Source: an uncultured Aquimonas sp.
Lineage (GTDB): Bacteria; Pseudomonadota; Gammaproteobacteria; Xanthomonadales; Xanthomonadaceae
Reading direction: 5' to 3'
Length of the DNA stretch: 9,519 nt
Assembly (NCBI GenBank): GCA_946481615.1
Contig: CAMLOR010000116.1
Coordinates: 1 to 9,519, forward strand
Of the stretch, positions 344-9,519 are shown one piece after another; the first letter of the stretch is position 1, and each line of letters starts with the position of its first letter. Both the position numbers and the translations under genes were made by a program. Below the pieces are notes generated by a model. It saw only the letters and a list, made by a program, of their open reading frames with translations, was not told where the DNA came from and did not search any database.

Positions 344-937
344 ATGATCCGCACGATGCTGTCGCTTTCCCTCCTGCTCGCCCTGCCTGCCCTCGCGCAG
401 GATCCGAACATGCCCCCGATGACGCCCGAACAGCAGGCGGAAATGGAGGCCTACCAGAAGGCCGGCACGCCCGGCGAGGCGCACGCCGCGCTCGCCAGGA
501 TGGCCGGCAGCTACGACCTCGCCATCAAGAGCTGGCACTCGCCGGGCGGCCCGCCGACGGAAGAGACAGGCACCGCAACGCGCACCATGGCGCTCGATGG
601 CCGCGTGCTGGTGGAAGACGTGAAATCCCAGATGCACGGCCAGCCCTGGACGGGCCATGGCATGCACGGCTACGACAACGTCACCGGCAAGCACTGGTCG
701 ACCTGGAACGATTCCATGTCCACCGGCCTCATGGTCAGCGAAGGCACCTGCGACGCCGCCGGCGCCTGCACCTTCACCGGCAGTTGGAACGACCCGGTCA
801 AGAAGGGCAACAAGATCACCTCGCGCATGACCACGAAGTGGACCACCCCCACGACGGAAGTCTTCGAGATGTTCGTGCCGGGTCCGGACGGGAAGGAGTT
901 CCGGATGATGGAGCTGACCTACACCAAGCGGCCGTAG
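344..937 (+). CDS. Secreted DUF1579 family protein
   Basis: A protein of 197 residues. The reading frame is open further upstream, but the ATG at 344 is chosen because AGGAG lies eight bases before it and a signal peptide begins exactly there: a short basic n-region, a Leu-rich core, and an ALA site with likely cleavage after Ala18. The mature protein has a Met/Pro/Gln-rich linker (about 19-40) and then the DUF1579 core: LARMAGSYDL (50-59), a LDGRVLVED strand (84-92), the G-x-GMHGYDNVTGK turn (104-116) and the WSTWND motif (118-123). Cys136 and Cys142 could form a disulfide in the periplasm. DUF1579 proteins are small secreted beta-rich proteins of unknown function, so no reaction is proposed. 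The gene is apparently monocistronic and ends nine bases before the convergent toxin gene. Confidence 0.85.
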   Translation: MIRTMLSLSLLLALPALAQDPNMPPMTPEQQAEMEAYQKAGTPGEAHAALARMAGSYDLAIKSWHSPGGPPTEETGTATRTMALDGRVLVEDVKSQMHGQPWTGHGMHGYDNVTGKHWSTWNDSMSTGLMVSEGTCDAAGACTFTGSWNDPVKKGNKITSRMTTKWTTPTTEVFEMFVPGPDGKEFRMMELTYTKRP

Positions 938-1432: not shown

Positions 1433-2458
1433 TCAGAACGCGCCTCGCTCCGGAGCTTCGTTCCACGCCGCGGGTAGCGGCGCCCACTCGCCCTCGTCGC
1501 GCCGCAGATAGTGGCGCACGAATTCGCCGAGGTCGACGTGCAGGTGGCGTTCCGCCGCCGCCGCGCCGGCGTCGTCGAGACTGGCCTCCAGCGCGAAGTC
1601 CTCGAAGCGCGGCCACGGGTCGCTCATGCCGGTGACGAGGATGCGGCCGAGATCGTAGGACAGCTCGTTGCCGTCGTCCGGACGATGGTAGGAACGGCCG
1701 CTCCAGAACTCCTGCATCGCCGCGGGCGTCCAGAACGCGCGATGCTTCTTCTCCAGCTCGATCAGCTTGTGCGCGTCGGCCACGCGGCCGAACGCGGTTT
1801 CCATGTTCACCGCCAAACCCTCGTTCAGCCAGGCGGGGATCGGCAGATGCGCGAGAAAAGCGTGCGTCATTTCGTGGACGATGGTCGGCTGCACCTGCTC
1901 GAGGTCGTCGCCGTTGACGACGAAATGCGGCCCGGGGCCGTTGAAATGCACGCCGGCGCTCATCGCGAACTCGCCTTCGTCGGGATAGCGGCCGGCGAGG
2001 TAACGGTAGTAATCGTCATCATTGTCGATCAGCAGGACGATCTGCTTCTCCGGCAGCCGATCGCTGGCGAGCCGCCCCAGCGAACGCGCCACGCGTCGCT
2101 GCGTGAGCGCCAGGTAGTCCAGCGCCACCTTCACCGCGCGCATCGGCCGGGCCGTCACCAGCAGCGCGTCATCGGACTCGTGCACGCGATAGGCAGCGCC
2201 CAGATGCGCCGCGACCCAGCCCATCCACTCGCGCTGCACCGCGAGCCACGCGGCGCCGTAACGCGCGCCGTCGAAGCCATCGGCCCACTCCCGCGCGCGC
2301 AGCAGGTCCGGATGCGGCACGCCCTCGCGCCACAGCGCGCCTTCGGCCAGATCGAACTCCTGCCCTTCGAACTGCACGCGCCCATCGCACTCGTGCGCCG
2401 CAGCGGCCGGCGCGAACGTATCGGGTACCGGCGCGAACCACCGCTTCAGCCAACGCAC
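1433..2458 (-). CDS. Putative zinc metallopeptidase, peptidase MA-like (HExxH, gluzincin type)
   Basis: A protein of 341 residues starting at a GTG (2458-2456) that shares one base with the TAG stop of icmF (TAGTG), so it is probably translated by reinitiation; a weak GGCGGA lies upstream. The frame is open much further upstream, but that stretch is a shadow of icmF. The zinc site is clear: HEMTH at 195-199 provides two histidines and the catalytic Glu196, and Glu213 in WLNEGLA (210-216) is the likely third ligand, the usual arrangement in peptidase-MA-like gluzincins. Residues 92-130 resemble the alpha/beta lead-in of that family, ending in a Val/Arg/Leu helix. No signal peptide, lipobox or membrane helix is apparent, so a cytoplasmic location is inferred. 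The substrate is unknown. Fixed coupling to icmF suggests co-expression at set ratio, but no direct link to the mutase is shown. Confidence 0.8.
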   Translation of the reverse strand: MRWLKRWFAPVPDTFAPAAAAHECDGRVQFEGQEFDLAEGALWREGVPHPDLLRAREWADGFDGARYGAAWLAVQREWMGWVAAHLGAAYRVHESDDALLVTARPMRAVKVALDYLALTQRRVARSLGRLASDRLPEKQIVLLIDNDDDYYRYLAGRYPDEGEFAMSAGVHFNGPGPHFVVNGDDLEQVQPTIVHEMTHAFLAHLPIPAWLNEGLAVNMETAFGRVADAHKLIELEKKHRAFWTPAAMQEFWSGRSYHRPDDGNELSYDLGRILVTGMSDPWPRFEDFALEASLDDAGAAAAERHLHVDLGEFVRHYLRRDEGEWAPLPAAWNEAPERGAF

Positions 2459-5400
2459 TACATGTTCCGCCGGTACTCGCCGCCCACGTCGTAGAGCGCG
2501 TGGCTGATCTGTCCCAGCGAGTGCGTCTTCACCGCCTCCATCAGCGCGGCGAAGACATTCTCGCGGCGGCGCGCGGTGGTCTGCAGCGGGGCGAGACCGC
2601 CGGACGCGAGGCCGTTGCGCAGTTGCTGCCAGCGCTGCACGTTGGCGATCTGCTGGCCCTTCTCGCCTTCGGTCGAGCGGATCAGTTCGATCTCGGTGAC
2701 GATGTCGCCGCCATGTTCCTTCGGCAGGAAGGTGTTGACGCCGACCAGCGGCAGCGAACCGTCGTGCTTCTTGTGTTCGTAGTAGAGCGATTCTTCCTGG
2801 ATCTTGCCGCGCTGGTACATGGTGTCCATCGCACCCAGCACGCCGCCGCGTTCGGAGATGGCCTCGAACTCGCGGTAGACGGCTTCCTCGACGATGTCCG
2901 TGAGCTTGTCGACGATGAAGCTGCCCTGCCACGGGTTCTCGCAGAAGTTCAGGCCCAGCTCCTTGTTGATGATCATCTGGATCGCCACCGCACGGCGCAC
3001 CGATTCCTCCGTCGGCGTGGTGATGGCCTCGTCGTAGGCGTTGGTGTGCAGCGAGTTGCAGTTGTCGAACAGCGCGTACAGCGCCTGCAGCGTCGTTCGG
3101 ATGTCGTTGAACTGGATCTCCTGCGCGTGCAGCGAGCGGCCGGAGGTCTGGATGTGGTACTTCATCATCTGGCTGCGCGGGTCGGCGCCGTAGCGTTCGC
3201 GCATGGCGCGGGCCCAGATGCGGCGGGCGACGCGGCCGATCACGGTGTATTCCGGGTCCATGCCGTTGCTGAAGAAGAACGACAGGTTGGGCGCGAAGTC
3301 GTCGATCTTCATCCCGCGCGCCAGGTAGTACTCGACGATGGTGAAACCGTTCGACAGCGTGAAGGCGAGCTGCGAGATCGGGTTCGCGCCGGCCTCGGCG
3401 ATGTGGTAGCCGGAGATCGACACCGAGTAGAAGTTGCGGACGCGGCGCTCCACGAAATACTGCTGGATGTCGCCCATCATCCGCAGCGCGAATTCGGTGC
3501 TGAAGATGCAGGTGTTCTGCGCCTGGTCTTCCTTGAGGATATCGGCCTGCACCGTGCCGCGCACGGTCGAGAGCGTCTGTGCCTTGATCTTCTCGTAGAC
3601 CTCGGGCTCGAGGAGCTGGTCTCCGCTGACGCCGAGCAGACCGAGGCCCAGCCCTTCGTTCCCGCCGGGTAGCGAGCCCGAATATTCGGGACGCGGCTTG
3701 CGTTCGAAGAACTTCTCGATGCGGTTGTGCGCGGTGTCCCAGCGCGCCTGGTCGGCACGCAGGTACTTCTCGACCTGCTGGTCGACCGCGGTGTTCATGA
3801 ACATCGCGAGGATGATCGGTGCAGGTCCGTTGATCGTCATCGACACGGACGTTGTCGGCGCGCACAGGTCGAAGCCCGAGTAGAGCTTCTTCATGTCGTC
3901 GAGCGTCGGGATGTTGACGCCGGAATTGCCGATCTTGCCGTAGATGTCGGGGCGCTCGGCCGGGTCTTCGCCGTAGAGCGTGACGCTGTCGAACGCGGTC
4001 GACAGACGGGCAGCGGGCAGGCCCTGGCTCAGGTAATGGAAGCGGCGATTGGTGCGCTCCGGCGTGCCTTCCCCGGCGAACATGCGGATCGGGTCTTCGC
4101 CGGTGCGACGGTACGGATACACGCCGCCGGTGTACGGGTACGAGCCCGGCAGGTTCTCCTTGCCGAGGAAGGTCAGCAGCTCGCCCCAGGACTTGTACGT
4201 CGGCGCGGCGATCTTCGGCACCTTCTGGTGCGACAGCGATTCGCGGTAGTTCTCGACGCGGATGGTCTTGTCGCGCACCTGGTATTCGGTGAACTCGTCG
4301 GTGATCGACTTCAGGCGCTGCGGCCATTGGCGCAGCTGCTTGAGGTTTTCGCTTGAGAGCGACTGCACCGCGTCGTTGTAACGCTGGCGCAGCGTCAGCA
4401 GCGTGCGATCCGGGCGAGCAGCGCCGCTCGGATGCTGCAGCCGCGCCAGCGCTTGCGCTTCGAGTTCGTCGATGTGCTGACGCGCGCGGTCGAGAACCGA
4501 GCCGACTTCGCCGTCGATCTGCGGCGGCAACAACGCTCCGGCGTCGTACAGATCGAGCGCCTTCGGCAACGCTGCGTCGCCGATGTCTTTCAGCGATTCC
4601 CAATACGACTGCGCGCGATCCGCGATCTCGCTCTGCTTCTCGATGTTGCCGTTGATCGCGCGCCCCTGCTCGGCGATCTCCGCGAGATAGCGCACGCGCG
4701 CACCGGGAATCAGCACGGTGGCGCGCGGTTCTTTCAGCGACGTGTCGACATCCGGCGACCACTTCGCTTCCGGCAACGACAGCTTCGTGCGCAGCAACCG
4801 GCACAGGTTGACGAACATCCAGCTGATGCCGGGATCGTTGAACTGCGAGGCGATGGTCGGGTAGACCGGCACGTCCTCGTCCTTCATCGAGAACGCGGTG
4901 CGGTTGCGCTTCCACTGTTTGCGCACGTCGCGCAGCGCGTCTTCGGCGCCGCGCTTGTCGAACTTGTTGAGCACCACCAGCTCGGCGTAGTCGAGCATGT
5001 CGATCTTCTCGAGCTGGCTGGGCGCGCCGAAATCGCTGGTCATGACGTACATCGGGAAATCGACCAGATCGACGATCTCCGAATCGCTCTGGCCGATGCC
5101 GGCGGTCTCCACGATGACGAGGTCGTAACCCAGCGACTTCAGGAACGCAATGCAATCCTTCAGCACGAGATTCGTCGCCATGTGCTGGCGGCGGGTGGCC
5201 ATCGAGCGCATGAACACGCGCGGGCTGCGCAGCGAGTTCATGCGGATGCGATCGCCCAGCAGCGCGCCGCCGGTGCGGCGGCGCGTGGGATCGACCGAGA
5301 TGACCGCCAGGCGCATCTCCGGGAAATTCGCGAGGAAGCGGTTCAACAACTCGTCCGTCACCGACGATTTGCCGGCGCCGCCCGTGCCGGTGATGCCCAC

Positions 5401-6006
5401 CACCGGCGTCTTGCCGCCCGCCAGCTGCCACTGCTTGCGCAGGTGCGCGAGCTCCGATTCCTCCAGCGCGCCTTCCTCGATGGCCGAAAGCATGCCGCCG
5501 ATGGCGATCTCGTCGGAGAGATCCACCTGCTTGGGCTTGGCGACGCCGACGCGATGCTCGCCGGCGCGGCGGATCACGTCCTCGATCATGGCCACGAGGC
5601 CCATGTGCATGCCGTCGTTCGGGTGGTAGATGCGCTCCACGCCGTAGGCCTGCAGCTCGCGGATCTCCTCCGGCGTGATGGTGCCGCCGCCGCCGCCGAA
5701 CACCTTGATGTGCGAGGCGCCGCGCGCCTTCAGCATGTCGACCATGTATTTGAAGTATTCGACGTGGCCGCCCTGGTAGCTCGACAGGGCGATGCCGTCG
5801 GCGTCCTCCTGCAGCGCGGCGCGCACCACGTCTTCGACGGAACGGTTGTGGCCCAGGTGCACCACTTCGGCGCCCTGCGACTGGATCAGGCGCCGCATGA
5901 TGTTGATGGCGGCATCGTGGCCGTCGAACAGGCTGGCGGCGGTGACGAAGCGCAGCGGCGTGGTCTCGGGCGCGGCGGCCGGCACGGAAGAGGCGGGCGT
6001 GCTCAT
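2458..6006 (-). CDS. icmF: Fused isobutyryl-CoA mutase (B12 domain + MeaB-like GTPase + mutase)
   Basis: A protein of 1182 residues that interconverts isobutyryl-CoA and n-butyryl-CoA with adenosylcobalamin, in the cytoplasm. Domain order is that of IcmF. The B12-binding domain (about 18-150) has FDGH, with His30 as lower axial cobalt ligand, SSYQGG (75-80) and a GGGGG loop (104-108). The MeaB-like G-protein chaperone (about 200-415) has Walker [10 protein letters not shown] (207-215), VDP (238-240), ETAG (300-303) and NKFD (347-350). A helical linker is followed by the mutase barrel (about 600-1182). Phe643 in RMFAG and Gln830 in DILKEDQAQ take the places of Tyr89 and Arg207 of methylmalonyl-CoA mutase, the isobutyryl-CoA signature; His868 in SGYHIAEAG matches the catalytic His244. 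The family, as I remember it, is near 1,090 residues, so this one is long. The ATG at 6006 has a weak GAGAG before it. It overlaps the peptidase gene by one base. Confidence 0.95.
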
Positions 6007-6036: not shown

Positions 6037-6042
6037 ATTGTA
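6037..6042 (-). promoter_or_regulatory. Candidate -10 hexamer of icmF
   Basis: On the minus strand the bases read TACAAT, five of six matching the sigma-70 consensus TATAAT, 30 bp before the icmF start and in otherwise very GC-rich DNA. A transcript from here would have a leader of about 24 bases, too short for a cobalamin riboswitch. The position 17 bp further upstream holds no good -35 hexamer; instead the repeated palindromic element (6060-6087) begins there, as expected for an activated or repressed promoter. Confidence 0.45.
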
Positions 6043-6059
6043 CCGCGCCGGCCGAGGCG

Positions 6060-6087
6060 GGCCCGGCCGTGCGCCCCCGTGCGGGGG
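6060..6087. repeat. 28-bp palindrome-containing element, copy A
   Basis: This copy reads GGCCCGGCC, then GTG, then CGCCCCCGTGCGGGGG. It matches copy B at 9058-9085 in 24 of 28 positions without gaps. The right half is an inverted repeat (CCCCCG 6074-6079, TG, CGGGGG 6082-6087). It lies between the divergent icmF and DUF4331 genes, with its icmF-side edge 17 bp from the candidate icmF -10. A role as operator or as dispersed REP-like repeat is open. Confidence 0.6.
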
Positions 6088-6175
6088 TGGACCCAGGGCA
6101 GAAATTTCAGGGTCGCGCCGGCGCCGCCACGCGGCCCTTGAAACCCGGCGCGGACGGGCGCTCAATCGGCTTTCG

Positions 6176-6198
6176 TTCGCGGCAGGAGGGGCCGCGAA
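6176..6198. promoter_or_regulatory. Perfect 8-bp inverted repeat, operator- or hairpin-like
   Basis: TTCGCGGC (6176-6183) and GCCGCGAA (6191-6198) are exact reverse complements around AGGAGGG. The centre-to-centre distance of the arms is 15 bp, which does not match a simple full-turn dimer operator but can form a stable RNA hairpin. It is 152 bp before the DUF4331 start and about 170 bp before the icmF start. No start codon with a convincing reading frame follows the AGGAGG in the loop. Confidence 0.35.
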
Positions 6199-6349
6199 TC
6201 CTATTGTCCCCTGCCCGCCTCTTGTGGCGTTGGCAAGGCGCCAGCTGTTCTCTCGCGAAGGATCGCGCGGCTCCCCGGTTCCCGCGGACGCGATGGACCG
6301 GGGCGTAGTGTCCCGTGCCCCACCTCATCCGCCACCGGGAGGTTCTTCC

Positions 6350-7801
6350 ATGAAACTGCACTTCGCTCCGCTCGCCCTTGCCCTGGCCGCGCTGTTGAAC
6401 ACCGCGGCGCAGGCCGCCGACCACCGCGACGGGCCGCTCACCACCAACGACCCCACGGCGGACATCAACGACGTCTACACCTTCGTCGATCCCACCGACC
6501 CCGCCCGCACCGTGATCGCCGTGACGGTGGTACCGCTGGCGAACAGCAACAGCCGCTTCTCCGACGTCGTCGACTACAACATCCACATCGACAACGGCGC
6601 CGCCAACGGCACCACGCTGATCAATTGCACCTTCCCCGAGGAAGCCACGCGCGTGCTGTGCCGCGGTGCCGGCGACACGCTCTATGCCGAAGGCCCGCTC
6701 AACCGCACCGTCGATGCCGACGATCTCAAGGTCTGGGCCGGCCTGCGCGACGATCCGTTCTTCTTCGATCTGGACGCCTTCAACCGCACGCGCGCCGACG
6801 TGGCGCCGCGCTTCACCAATCCGGGCGTGAACTTCTTCGCCGGCGCCAACACGCTGGCCATCGTGCTGAGCATCGAAAGCGCACGCCTGACCAACGACGG
6901 CGCCAACGACACGCTCAAGGTCTACGCCTCCACCACGCGCAACGGCGACGCCGGCATCGGCGCGGGCATCAGCGGCCTGTGGTACGACCCGGCCAATTCG
7001 GGCCACGGCCTGGTGCTGCAGGTGACCGGCTCGGGCGACGAAGACAACCTGCCGTACAAGATGATCACGTACTGGAACGTGTTCACGCCGCAGGGCGCGC
7101 AACTCAACCTGTGGGGCATCGGCGACGTCGAGGTCAACGGCGACCAGGCCAGCGTGCCGGTGAGCACGAGCAGCGGCGGCAACTTTCCGCCGGCGGCCAT
7201 GAACAATCCGCCCGTGGAAGCCTTCGGCACGCTGGACTTCACCTTCACCGGCTGCAACACGGCGAGCATGGCGGTCACCACCACGCGCGCGGGCTATGCC
7301 GACACCACGGTGCCGCTCACGCGGCTCACCTCGGTGCTCGATCTGCCGTGCAGCTTCAACTCCACCGGCCAGATCGATCGCATGGGCCGTCCGGGCATCA
7401 ACACGGCACTGATCGATCTGCTCGCCTCCACCGGCAAGAAGGATCTCTACAACCGCGCCGTCGATCCGGCCGGCTGGGCCGCCGCGTTCACCAGCGAAAT
7501 GCAGGCCAACCTCACCGCGCTAGACACCCTCGACGGCACCAGCGGCAACGCCGTGCTGGGGGCGGCGCCGCTGGCGGGCGTGCTGGTCGACGACCGCCTG
7601 CAGATCAACAGCGCGGTCGCGGCCTGCGATGCGTATCTCGCGGTAGAACTGGGCGTGACCGCCAACTGCGGCGGCCGCACCCTGGCGCGCGACGTCATCG
7701 ACGACACCCTGGGCGCCGTGGTCGGCCCGGGCGTCAGCGACAACGTGCCGAACGACAGCACCTTCCTCGAGGCCTTCCCGTTCCTGGGCGCGCCGAACTG
7801 A
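6350..7801 (+). CDS. Secreted DUF4331 protein with an internal SGHG-type module
   Basis: A protein of 483 residues. The ATG at 6350 is chosen because GGGAGG lies seven bases before it and a signal peptide starts there: basic start, Ala/Leu core and AQA cleavage site after Ala22. The mature protein opens with ADHRDGPLTTNDPTADINDV, the hallmark of DUF4331, and the N-terminal half continues to about residue 200. Residues about 207-334 differ: they start with SGLWYDPANSGHG (208-220), continue with YWNVF...QLNLWGIG (241-258), a Gly/Ser-rich stretch, and TFTGCNTASM (298-307), and end in RLTSVLDLPC (325-334). This is a beta-rich module I recognise from secreted Xanthomonadales-type proteins. DUF4331 then resumes at QIDRMGRPGIN (341-351). 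Cys302 and Cys334 may pair. Its function is unknown; it is likely periplasmic or extracellular. Its stop overlaps the next start (TGATG). Confidence 0.88.
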   Translation: MKLHFAPLALALAALLNTAAQAADHRDGPLTTNDPTADINDVYTFVDPTDPARTVIAVTVVPLANSNSRFSDVVDYNIHIDNGAANGTTLINCTFPEEATRVLCRGAGDTLYAEGPLNRTVDADDLKVWAGLRDDPFFFDLDAFNRTRADVAPRFTNPGVNFFAGANTLAIVLSIESARLTNDGANDTLKVYASTTRNGDAGIGAGISGLWYDPANSGHGLVLQVTGSGDEDNLPYKMITYWNVFTPQGAQLNLWGIGDVEVNGDQASVPVSTSSGGNFPPAAMNNPPVEAFGTLDFTFTGCNTASMAVTTTRAGYADTTVPLTRLTSVLDLPCSFNSTGQIDRMGRPGINTALIDLLASTGKKDLYNRAVDPAGWAAAFTSEMQANLTALDTLDGTSGNAVLGAAPLAGVLVDDRLQINSAVAACDAYLAVELGVTANCGGRTLARDVIDDTLGAVVGPGVSDNVPNDSTFLEAFPFLGAPN

Positions 7802-9024
7802 TGCGTGCGGCGATACGGGCGGGCTTCGCCCTGGCGCTGGCGGCGATGCTGGCCGCCTGCGCCTCGACGCCGGAGCGGGAAACCGCGGCGGCCGTGGAAG
7901 ATCCGAGCTGGCCGATCGGCCTGACGGACTACCGCACCACGGCCGCCTCGATCTATCTCGGCAATCTCGACGCCCGCATCTCGGAACTGCGCCGCCTGAT
8001 CGCGGCGCAGGACCAGGCGCATCACCGCACATCGCTGGCAGGCAGCCTGTACCACCGTTACCGCGTGCTCGGCCGGCTCGAAGACGCCGACGAAGCGCTG
8101 CGGCTGTCCGAAGCTGCGGTGGCGGCCGATCCCGAGGATCCGAAGCACCGCCTCACGCGTGCGGTGATCCTGGCCGGCTTCCACCGTTTCGACGCGGCGC
8201 TGGCCGATCTGGACGTCGCGCAATCGCACGGTGCACGGCCGGAAGAAACCGGCGGCACGCGGCGCGAAATCCAGCTCGCGCTCGGCCAGTACGATCGCCT
8301 CGCGGAAGAGTTCGCGCGCTCGGACGAACTCACGCACGACTTCCTCGAACTGGCCAACCGCGCCGACCTGCGCGTGCAGCAGGGCGATCTGGCCGGCGCC
8401 ACCTTCCTCTACCGCGCCGCGCAGGCCGAATACCGCGACGTCAATCCTTTCCCGCTGGCCTGGCTGCACGTGCAACAGGGCATCGCCTTCCTGCGCTTCG
8501 GGCAGTTGCAGCAAGCGCGGCGCTTCTTCGAGGCCGCGCACGCGCGCATGCCGACCTACTACCTCGCCACCGAACATCTCGCCGAGACCGAAACCCGTCT
8601 GGGCAACCGCGAACGCGCACGCGGGCTGTACGCGCAAGTGATCGGGCAGACCGGCAATCCGGAATTCATCGCGGCGTTGTCACGGCTCGAAGCCGCCGAC
8701 GGCCACGAAAAACTCGCCGCACGCCTGGCCCGGCAGGCCGAAGAAGGCTACGCGGACCTGCTGCGCATCAATCCCTCCGCATATGCTCAGCATGCCGCCG
8801 AGTTCTTCGTCGAGATCGAGAAGCCGCAGCGCGCCTACGAACTCGCGCAGCAGAACCTCGCGCTGCGGCAGGACGTCGGCAGCTGGATCCTGCTGGCGCA
8901 GGCGGCACACGCGGTGGGCGACGATGCCCGCGCCTGCGAAGCGCGCTCGCAGGCGCTCGAAACCGGCCTGAAGCCGCCGGAACTCGCCGAACTCGACGCC
9001 TTCGCGGCGGCCTGCACGCCCTGA
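7801..9024 (+). CDS. TPR-repeat lipoprotein
   Basis: A protein of 407 residues whose ATG uses the last base of the DUF4331 stop codon (TGATG), so it is translationally coupled. The N-terminus has a hydrophobic signal ending in lipobox LAAC, with Cys20 as the lipidated residue. Ala and Ser follow rather than Asp, which favours outer-membrane sorting. From about residue 80 to the C-terminus the protein is a series of helix pairs with TPR character: EDADEALRLSEAAVAADPED (residues 96-115), a FHRFDAALADLDVA pair, a LQQARRFFEAAHARMP pair, a GNRERARGLYAQV pair, and a final QRAYELAQQNLALR pair. TPR proteins act as protein-binding scaffolds, so it may hold the DUF4331 partner at the membrane; that is inference. 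No enzyme motif is visible. Confidence 0.85.
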   Translation: MRAAIRAGFALALAAMLAACASTPERETAAAVEDPSWPIGLTDYRTTAASIYLGNLDARISELRRLIAAQDQAHHRTSLAGSLYHRYRVLGRLEDADEALRLSEAAVAADPEDPKHRLTRAVILAGFHRFDAALADLDVAQSHGARPEETGGTRREIQLALGQYDRLAEEFARSDELTHDFLELANRADLRVQQGDLAGATFLYRAAQAEYRDVNPFPLAWLHVQQGIAFLRFGQLQQARRFFEAAHARMPTYYLATEHLAETETRLGNRERARGLYAQVIGQTGNPEFIAALSRLEAADGHEKLAARLARQAEEGYADLLRINPSAYAQHAAEFFVEIEKPQRAYELAQQNLALRQDVGSWILLAQAAHAVGDDARACEARSQALETGLKPPELAELDAFAAACTP

Positions 9025-9025
9025 A

Positions 9026-9043
9026 GCCGCCGGCACCGGCGGC
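9026..9043 (+). terminator. GC hairpin directly after the TPR lipoprotein gene
   Basis: GCCGCCG (9026-9032) and CGGCGGC (9037-9043) form a perfect 7-bp stem with a GCAC loop, starting two bases after the stop codon. An outer pair GAAGCC (9023-9028) / GGCTTC (9052-9057) offers an alternative longer fold. No T-run follows, so intrinsic termination is uncertain. Confidence 0.35.
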
Positions 9044-9057
9044 GGCGCGCGGGCTTC

Positions 9058-9085
9058 GGCCCGGCCATACGCCCGCGTGCGGGCG
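9058..9085. repeat. 28-bp palindrome-containing element, copy B
   Basis: This copy reads GGCCCGGCC, then ATA, then CGCCCGCGTGCGGGCG, and differs from copy A (6060-6087) at only four positions. The right half is a perfect inverted repeat with arms CGCCCGC (9070-9076) and GCGGGCG (9079-9085). An outer CCGGCC (9061-9066) / GGCCGG (9094-9099) pair nests around it. It ends 20 bp before the TAAACT hexamer of the dehydrogenase gene and 62 bp before that gene's start. Confidence 0.6.
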
Positions 9086-9105
9086 CCCTGCCCGGCCGGA
9101 TGCTC

Positions 9106-9111
9106 TAAACT
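9106..9111 (+). promoter_or_regulatory. Candidate -10 hexamer of the amino-acid dehydrogenase gene
   Basis: TAAACT stands out in GC-rich DNA 36 bp before the ATG at 9148, and the same hexamer occurs before the DUF1579 gene at 288-293. No -35 hexamer is seen; the region where it should be is occupied by the end of repeat copy B. Assignment rests on position and base composition only. Confidence 0.35.
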
Positions 9112-9147: not shown

Positions 9148-9519
9148 ATGATCTTCGAAACCCTTGCCACGTCCGGCCACGAGCAGGTCGTTTTCTGCCA
9201 CAACAAGGACGCCGGCCTGAAGGCCATCATCGCCATCCACAGCACCGTGCTGGGTCCTGCGCTGGGCGGCCTGCGCATGTGGCCGTACAAGAGCGAGCAG
9301 GAAGCGCTGAACGACGTGCTGCGCCTCTCGCGCGGCATGAGCTACAAGAACGCCGTGGCCGGCCTCAACATCGGCGGCGGCAAGGCCGTCATCATCGGCG
9401 ACCCGAACAAGGACAAGTCCGAGGTGCTGTTCCGCGCCTTCGGCCGCTTCGTCGATTCGCTGGGCGGCCGCTACATCACGGCCGAGGACGTCGGCATCGA
9501 CGTCAACGACATGGAATAC
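9148..9519 (+). CDS. Glu/Leu/Phe/Val dehydrogenase family protein, leucine-dehydrogenase-like (N-terminal part)
   Basis: The first 124 codons are present; the gene runs off the right edge. The ATG at 9148 gives the family-typical N-terminus MIFETL; only a weak GGTG lies before it. The family oxidatively deaminates leucine, valine or isoleucine (some members phenylalanine) with NAD+ to the 2-oxo acid. The catalytic domain is clear: [10 protein letters not shown] (38-47), [20 protein letters not shown] (61-80) with Lys67 as the probable substrate-carboxylate ligand and Lys79 as catalytic lysine, and TAEDVG (111-116) with Asp114. The numbering is one less than in Bacillus leucine dehydrogenase (Lys68, Lys80, Asp115). 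The NAD-binding domain is outside the window, so cofactor and exact substrate remain inferred. It shares an upstream element with icmF, which fits a role in branched-chain amino-acid breakdown. Confidence 0.9.

Follow-up and report, generated by a model that had tools for sequence, protein, structure and literature searches.

The 9,519-bp stretch of DNA analyzed here (the window), which belongs to a member of the Lysobacterales, carries an icmF-type fused mutase gene that diverges from a DUF4331 gene, followed by a TPR gene and the beginning of a Glu/Leu/Phe/Val dehydrogenase gene (Table 1). Two intergenic regions concern us, the one ahead of icmF and the one ahead of the dehydrogenase gene, and each contains one copy of a similar 28-mer (copies A and B) together with a -10-like box. 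Elsewhere in the window, two small frames on the minus strand, 947-1186 and 1183-1398, overlap by 4 bases; we take them to resemble a HicA/HicB-type toxin-antitoxin pair, and part of the frame at 1183-1398 has no Pfam match.

Table 1. Features of the window discussed in the text
Feature	Coordinates	Strand	Remarks
DUF1579 protein gene	344-937	+	domain match in frame
icmF-type fused mutase gene	2458..6006	-	B12-binding, MeaB and methylmalonyl-CoA mutase domains
TACAAT, -10-like box of icmF	6037..6042	-	conserved in relatives
Copy A of the 28-mer	6060..6087	+	intergenic, with icmF and DUF4331 diverging on either side
Stretch of A in register with the B core, CGTGC-GCCCCC-GTGCG	6068..6083	+	4 mismatches; 25 bp from TACAAT; candidate member
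DUF4331 gene, then TPR gene	6350-9024	+	domain matches; ahead of the dehydrogenase gene
Copy B of the 28-mer	9058..9085	+	33 bp past the TPR gene stop
Core inside copy B, CATAC-GCCCGC-GTGCG	9066..9081	+	2 mismatches to CATAC-N6-GTATG; 24 bp ahead of the -10-like box
TAAACT, -10-like box of the dehydrogenase gene	9106..9111	+	fits TARAMT
Glu/Leu/Phe/Val dehydrogenase gene, 5' part	9148..9519	+	remainder beyond the window end

Two similar 28-mers in GC-rich intergenic DNA

A first-pass annotation of the window described copies A and B as one palindromic element placed ahead of two promoters. The resemblance is as it was described: the copies are identical at 24 of 28 positions with both in the + orientation, and A lies 17 bp from TACAAT (6042-6037, minus strand) and B 20 bp from TAAACT (9106-9111). 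The 28-bp palindrome does not hold up, since comparison of the 28-mer with its own reverse complement gives 16/28 matching positions for A and 14/28 for B. The best hairpins are CCCCC-GTGC-GGGGG in A and CGCCCG-CGTG-CGGGCG in B, and their centers are one base out of register in the alignment.

Over the whole window the A/B pair is not clearly more than chance. A pair of 28-mers matching at 24 or more of 28 positions appeared somewhere in the window in 15 of 60 simulations with locally matched composition. In real 9,519-bp stretches from relatives (the first 9,519 bases of those of our 80 first loci that were long enough, 76 in all), such a pair was found in 68 when any distance was allowed and in 24 when the copies had to lie at least 1 kb apart. 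At up to three mismatches the 16-mer CGCCCGCGTGCGGGCG matches four places within the window, including A and B; shuffles average 2.99. When only the two intergenic regions (G+C contents 72% and 80%) are compared, the match is unusual: 24/28 was reached in none of 2000 dinucleotide shuffles.

The 28-mer in related genomes

We searched for the 28-mer in the genomes of relatives and, at up to three mismatches, found it in 0 of 20, 0 of 397 and 0 of 20. These three sets overlap in part; the 397 come from a larger group that includes genome G110, and the last 20 include G428 and G417. The exact 23-letter form of the 28-mer gave no hits in viral contigs, and Rfam returned no matches at gathering scores. 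A 23-bp part, sought at up to three mismatches, was found at 10, 1 and 2 places in G428, G110 and G417, respectively, and its reversed control at 1, 3 and 2. We rejected the G428 matches as copies of A/B: seven of the ten are one identical string, a different repeat. The four of these seven places that were inspected (L121, L123, L126 and L127) share an identical 320-bp stretch and belong to a long repeat unrelated to A/B. A form modeled on locus L016 was also rejected, with three places in 12 genomes, L016 itself included, and 19 for the reversed control. BLAST of positions 6040-6110 against 395 genomes gave a borderline match in 27 (best E value 4.5e-5), numbers that are not copy counts, since two candidates were scored per genome; the best of the five matches inspected has 7 mismatches to the 28-mer.

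At up to eight mismatches the 28-mer matches 9 of 80 icmF upstream regions (shuffle mean 4.9, with 2 of 40 sets reaching 9) and 5 of 66 dehydrogenase upstream regions (shuffle mean 3.9, with 13 of 40 sets reaching 5). Across the 80 first loci the closest match, in L077, has five mismatches. Comparing the icmF and dehydrogenase upstream regions within each locus gave a best common 28-mer of 20/28 at most in all 52 loci, 14 overlapping upstream pairs having been excluded.

A 16-bp core recurs upstream of the dehydrogenase gene

The relatives' upstream regions contain a shorter inverted repeat, first noticed as TACGC-N2-GCGTA. At up to one mismatch this form is present in 12 of 73 dehydrogenase upstream regions, the window included (shuffles: mean 0.5, largest 3), and in 1 of 86 icmF upstream regions (shuffle mean 0.6). 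The form CATAC-N6-GTATG was derived after alignment on the -10 box and was scanned for over 250 bp upstream. In this first set it occurs upstream of the dehydrogenase in 14 of 73 regions at up to one mismatch (shuffles: mean 0.1, largest 1) and in 27 of 73 at up to two (mean 2.7, largest 7); the window counts toward the 73 and lies outside the 14.

Because this motif was picked after looking, it was fixed in writing beforehand and then tried on new loci, and only the new set counts as a test. That set consists of 30 + 80 loci among 370 genomes with a match and, with 12 duplicates dropped, yields 98 dehydrogenase upstream regions. The motif was present in 7 of them at up to one mismatch (mean 0.3, largest 2 over 60 shuffle sets) and in 13 at up to two (shuffles: mean 4.2, largest 9). 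With both sets pooled and the window left out, the counts are 21/170 and 39/170, against a background of 0.37% and 2.9% in 20,000 random 250-bp stretches from the same loci; 131 of the 170 are without the motif at up to two mismatches. In 2.5 Mb there are 37 sites at up to one mismatch; the two upstream regions hold 21 of them, and the other 16 lie outside. A CATAC-N6-GTATG-like repeat is over-represented upstream of the dehydrogenase gene in part of the Lysobacterales, and copy B carries it. Judged by sequence comparison, the conserved unit is this 16-bp core and not the 28-mer.

The sites can be measured against conserved -10-like boxes. In 52 of 66 loci TARAMT is found no more than 250 bp ahead of the dehydrogenase, compared with 1.1% of 2000 random stretches, and TACAAT lies within 75 bp upstream of the icmF start in 55 of 81, compared with 0.35% of 2000. 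Counting the window, there are 40 dehydrogenase sites at up to two mismatches. Their spacing ahead of the -10 box is 12 bp for 13 sites and 22-26 bp for another 14; for the last 13 the spacing differs or a box was not found. The dehydrogenase upstream region of G428 has CATACGCTGCAGTGCA, with three mismatches and at 24 bp from the box as in the window, that of G417 has CATACGCCCGCGCACG, with two mismatches at 35 bp, and that of Thermomonas hydrothermalis (L010) has a clear site, CATACCTTGACGTATG. G110, the nearest relative examined by its TPR protein, has no site upstream of the dehydrogenase at up to three mismatches.

Copy A and the upstream regions of icmF

The stretch of copy A that aligns with the B core differs from the motif at 4 of 10 positions, no better than shuffles, and the case for counting it as a motif site therefore depends on how closely it resembles B and where it lies: the cores of A and B lie at similar distances, 25 and 24 bp, from their -10 boxes. 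The upstream regions of icmF in relatives are enriched for the motif, more weakly than those of the dehydrogenase. At up to two mismatches the first set has it in 13 of 86 (shuffles: mean 2.8, largest 7). In the new set the icmF start was present in 64 of 110 stretches, leaving 55 upstream regions after nine duplicates were dropped, and the motif occurs in 10 of these at up to two mismatches (shuffles: mean 2.1, largest 6), at mixed distances, and in 2 at up to one (mean 0.2, largest 2). Both sets without the window give 2/140 at up to one mismatch and 23/140 at up to two (2.9% of random stretches), with 117 of the 140 lacking the motif at the latter threshold. At least two sites (L020 and L247) lie in a gap common to both genes and were counted for each.

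The icmF sites stand 22-23 bp from the -10 box in L008, L057, L067 and L255 and 32 bp in three loci; for the remainder the distances are 27, 33, 35, 37, 43 and 47 bp, or no box was found. The icmF upstream regions of L182, L194 and L206 have a CRTAC-N6-GTACG-type site 32 bp from the box, a third distance class.

Interpretation

We favor a model in which copies A and B are sites of one shared putative regulator at the icmF and dehydrogenase promoters, and we place its probability at roughly 0.5. A single dimeric regulator would bind A at the icmF promoter and B at the dehydrogenase promoter; A may be a site for it that is weak or has diverged. The 12 bp and 22-26 bp distance classes are about one helical turn apart, so that the protein would contact the same helical face in either class. 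The regulator may activate transcription from close to -35, a suggestion to which we attach low weight and that we make because a scan found no full sigma-70-type promoter there. In a further form, which we hold at a little short of an even bet, a candidate regulator that binds CATAC-N6-GTATG-like sites may jointly control head-to-head icmF and dehydrogenase genes in part of the Lysobacterales from two helical-phase positions ahead of the -10 box, with A and B as its sites in this organism.

The candidate site resembles the operator of a dimeric helix-turn-helix protein near -35 in having two inverted 5-base halves with 6 bases between them, near a promoter and ahead of orthologous genes. Unlike such an operator, it is found in a minority of relatives, and copy A is a poor match. 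The annotation's hypothesis of a shared operator gains from the recurrence of the B core upstream of relatives' dehydrogenase genes, at preferred distances and on new loci, and loses from the mismatches of A; with the icmF enrichment weaker and copy A at chance level, we regard a shared site as plausible. The original 28-bp match was weak evidence in itself, yet it pointed at something real. If true, the model would point to a concrete, testable site through which a regulator controls branched-chain amino-acid breakdown in the Lysobacterales, with two genes of the pathway arranged head to head.

In a different reading, which we consider unlikely but deserving of serious attention, the dehydrogenase has a genuine regulator site that B overlaps, but the likeness of A is a GC-rich coincidence and the regulon in this organism does not include icmF. 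The four motif mismatches of A, the frequency of 24/28 pairs in windows of this size and the weaker enrichment at icmF all fit this account. Moreover, genome G332 has the core of A again within open frames that are 585 and 574 codons long, which indicates that composition can generate it. Against coincidence stand the shuffles of the two intergenic regions, the identical register of A and B at nearly equal distances from a conserved -10 box, and the motif enrichment in relatives' icmF upstream regions. In addition, the icmF upstream regions of L044 (25 bp from TACAAT) and L016 (39 bp) have matches to the 28-mer with six mismatches, and none of 40 shuffle sets has two such matches.

That A and B are both chance resemblances in GC-rich intergenic DNA is improbable in our estimation. 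The whole-window statistics, from simulations and real stretches alike, and the count for the 16-mer are what one would cite for it; the enrichment of the core upstream of the dehydrogenase on new loci, together with its spacing from the -10 box, argues the other way.

Slightly less credible again is the proposal that this lineage has a dispersed REP-like hairpin repeat of which A and B are two copies. Both copies are intergenic and form GC-rich hairpins of 20-40 bp like the GTAG- or CGTC-tagged, RAYT-associated REPs, among the 24 pairs with distant copies in stretches of relatives, roughly 11 resemble REPs when judged by eye, and an excerpt of PMC3733652 indicates that REP families can be species-specific. 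However, positions 6045-6105 and 9040-9105 contain no GTAG, CGTC or GGAG (the first two checked on either strand), and GTGG occurs once, on the 3' side of the A hairpin and not at its head. The stems are out of register, and the 28-mer is absent from the three partly overlapping genome sets. Two copies are visible, and A lies between divergent genes, whereas the same excerpt of PMC3733652 places REPs mainly between unidirectional or convergent ones. An excerpt of PMC2817692 gives REP copy numbers as usually more than 100 per genome. As for copy B being part of an intrinsic terminator, its GC hairpin does follow a stop codon, but it has no T-tract and the scan called no terminator at A or B.

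Gene order in relatives

The order icmF, DUF4331, TPR, dehydrogenase is also found in G428 and L012. G428 shares 88% identity with the window in IcmF and 97% in the dehydrogenase over its first 124 residues. The DUF4331 and TPR genes are adjacent in 17 of 18 loci (L081-L096, L101 and L102), the remaining locus being without a DUF4331 match. Where the fetched stretches contain both icmF and the dehydrogenase gene, the two lie on opposite strands in all 66 first-set loci and head to head in all 64 new loci, and in 14 first-set loci their starts are less than 520 bp apart. In G011 roughly 140 kb of a single contig separates the two genes.
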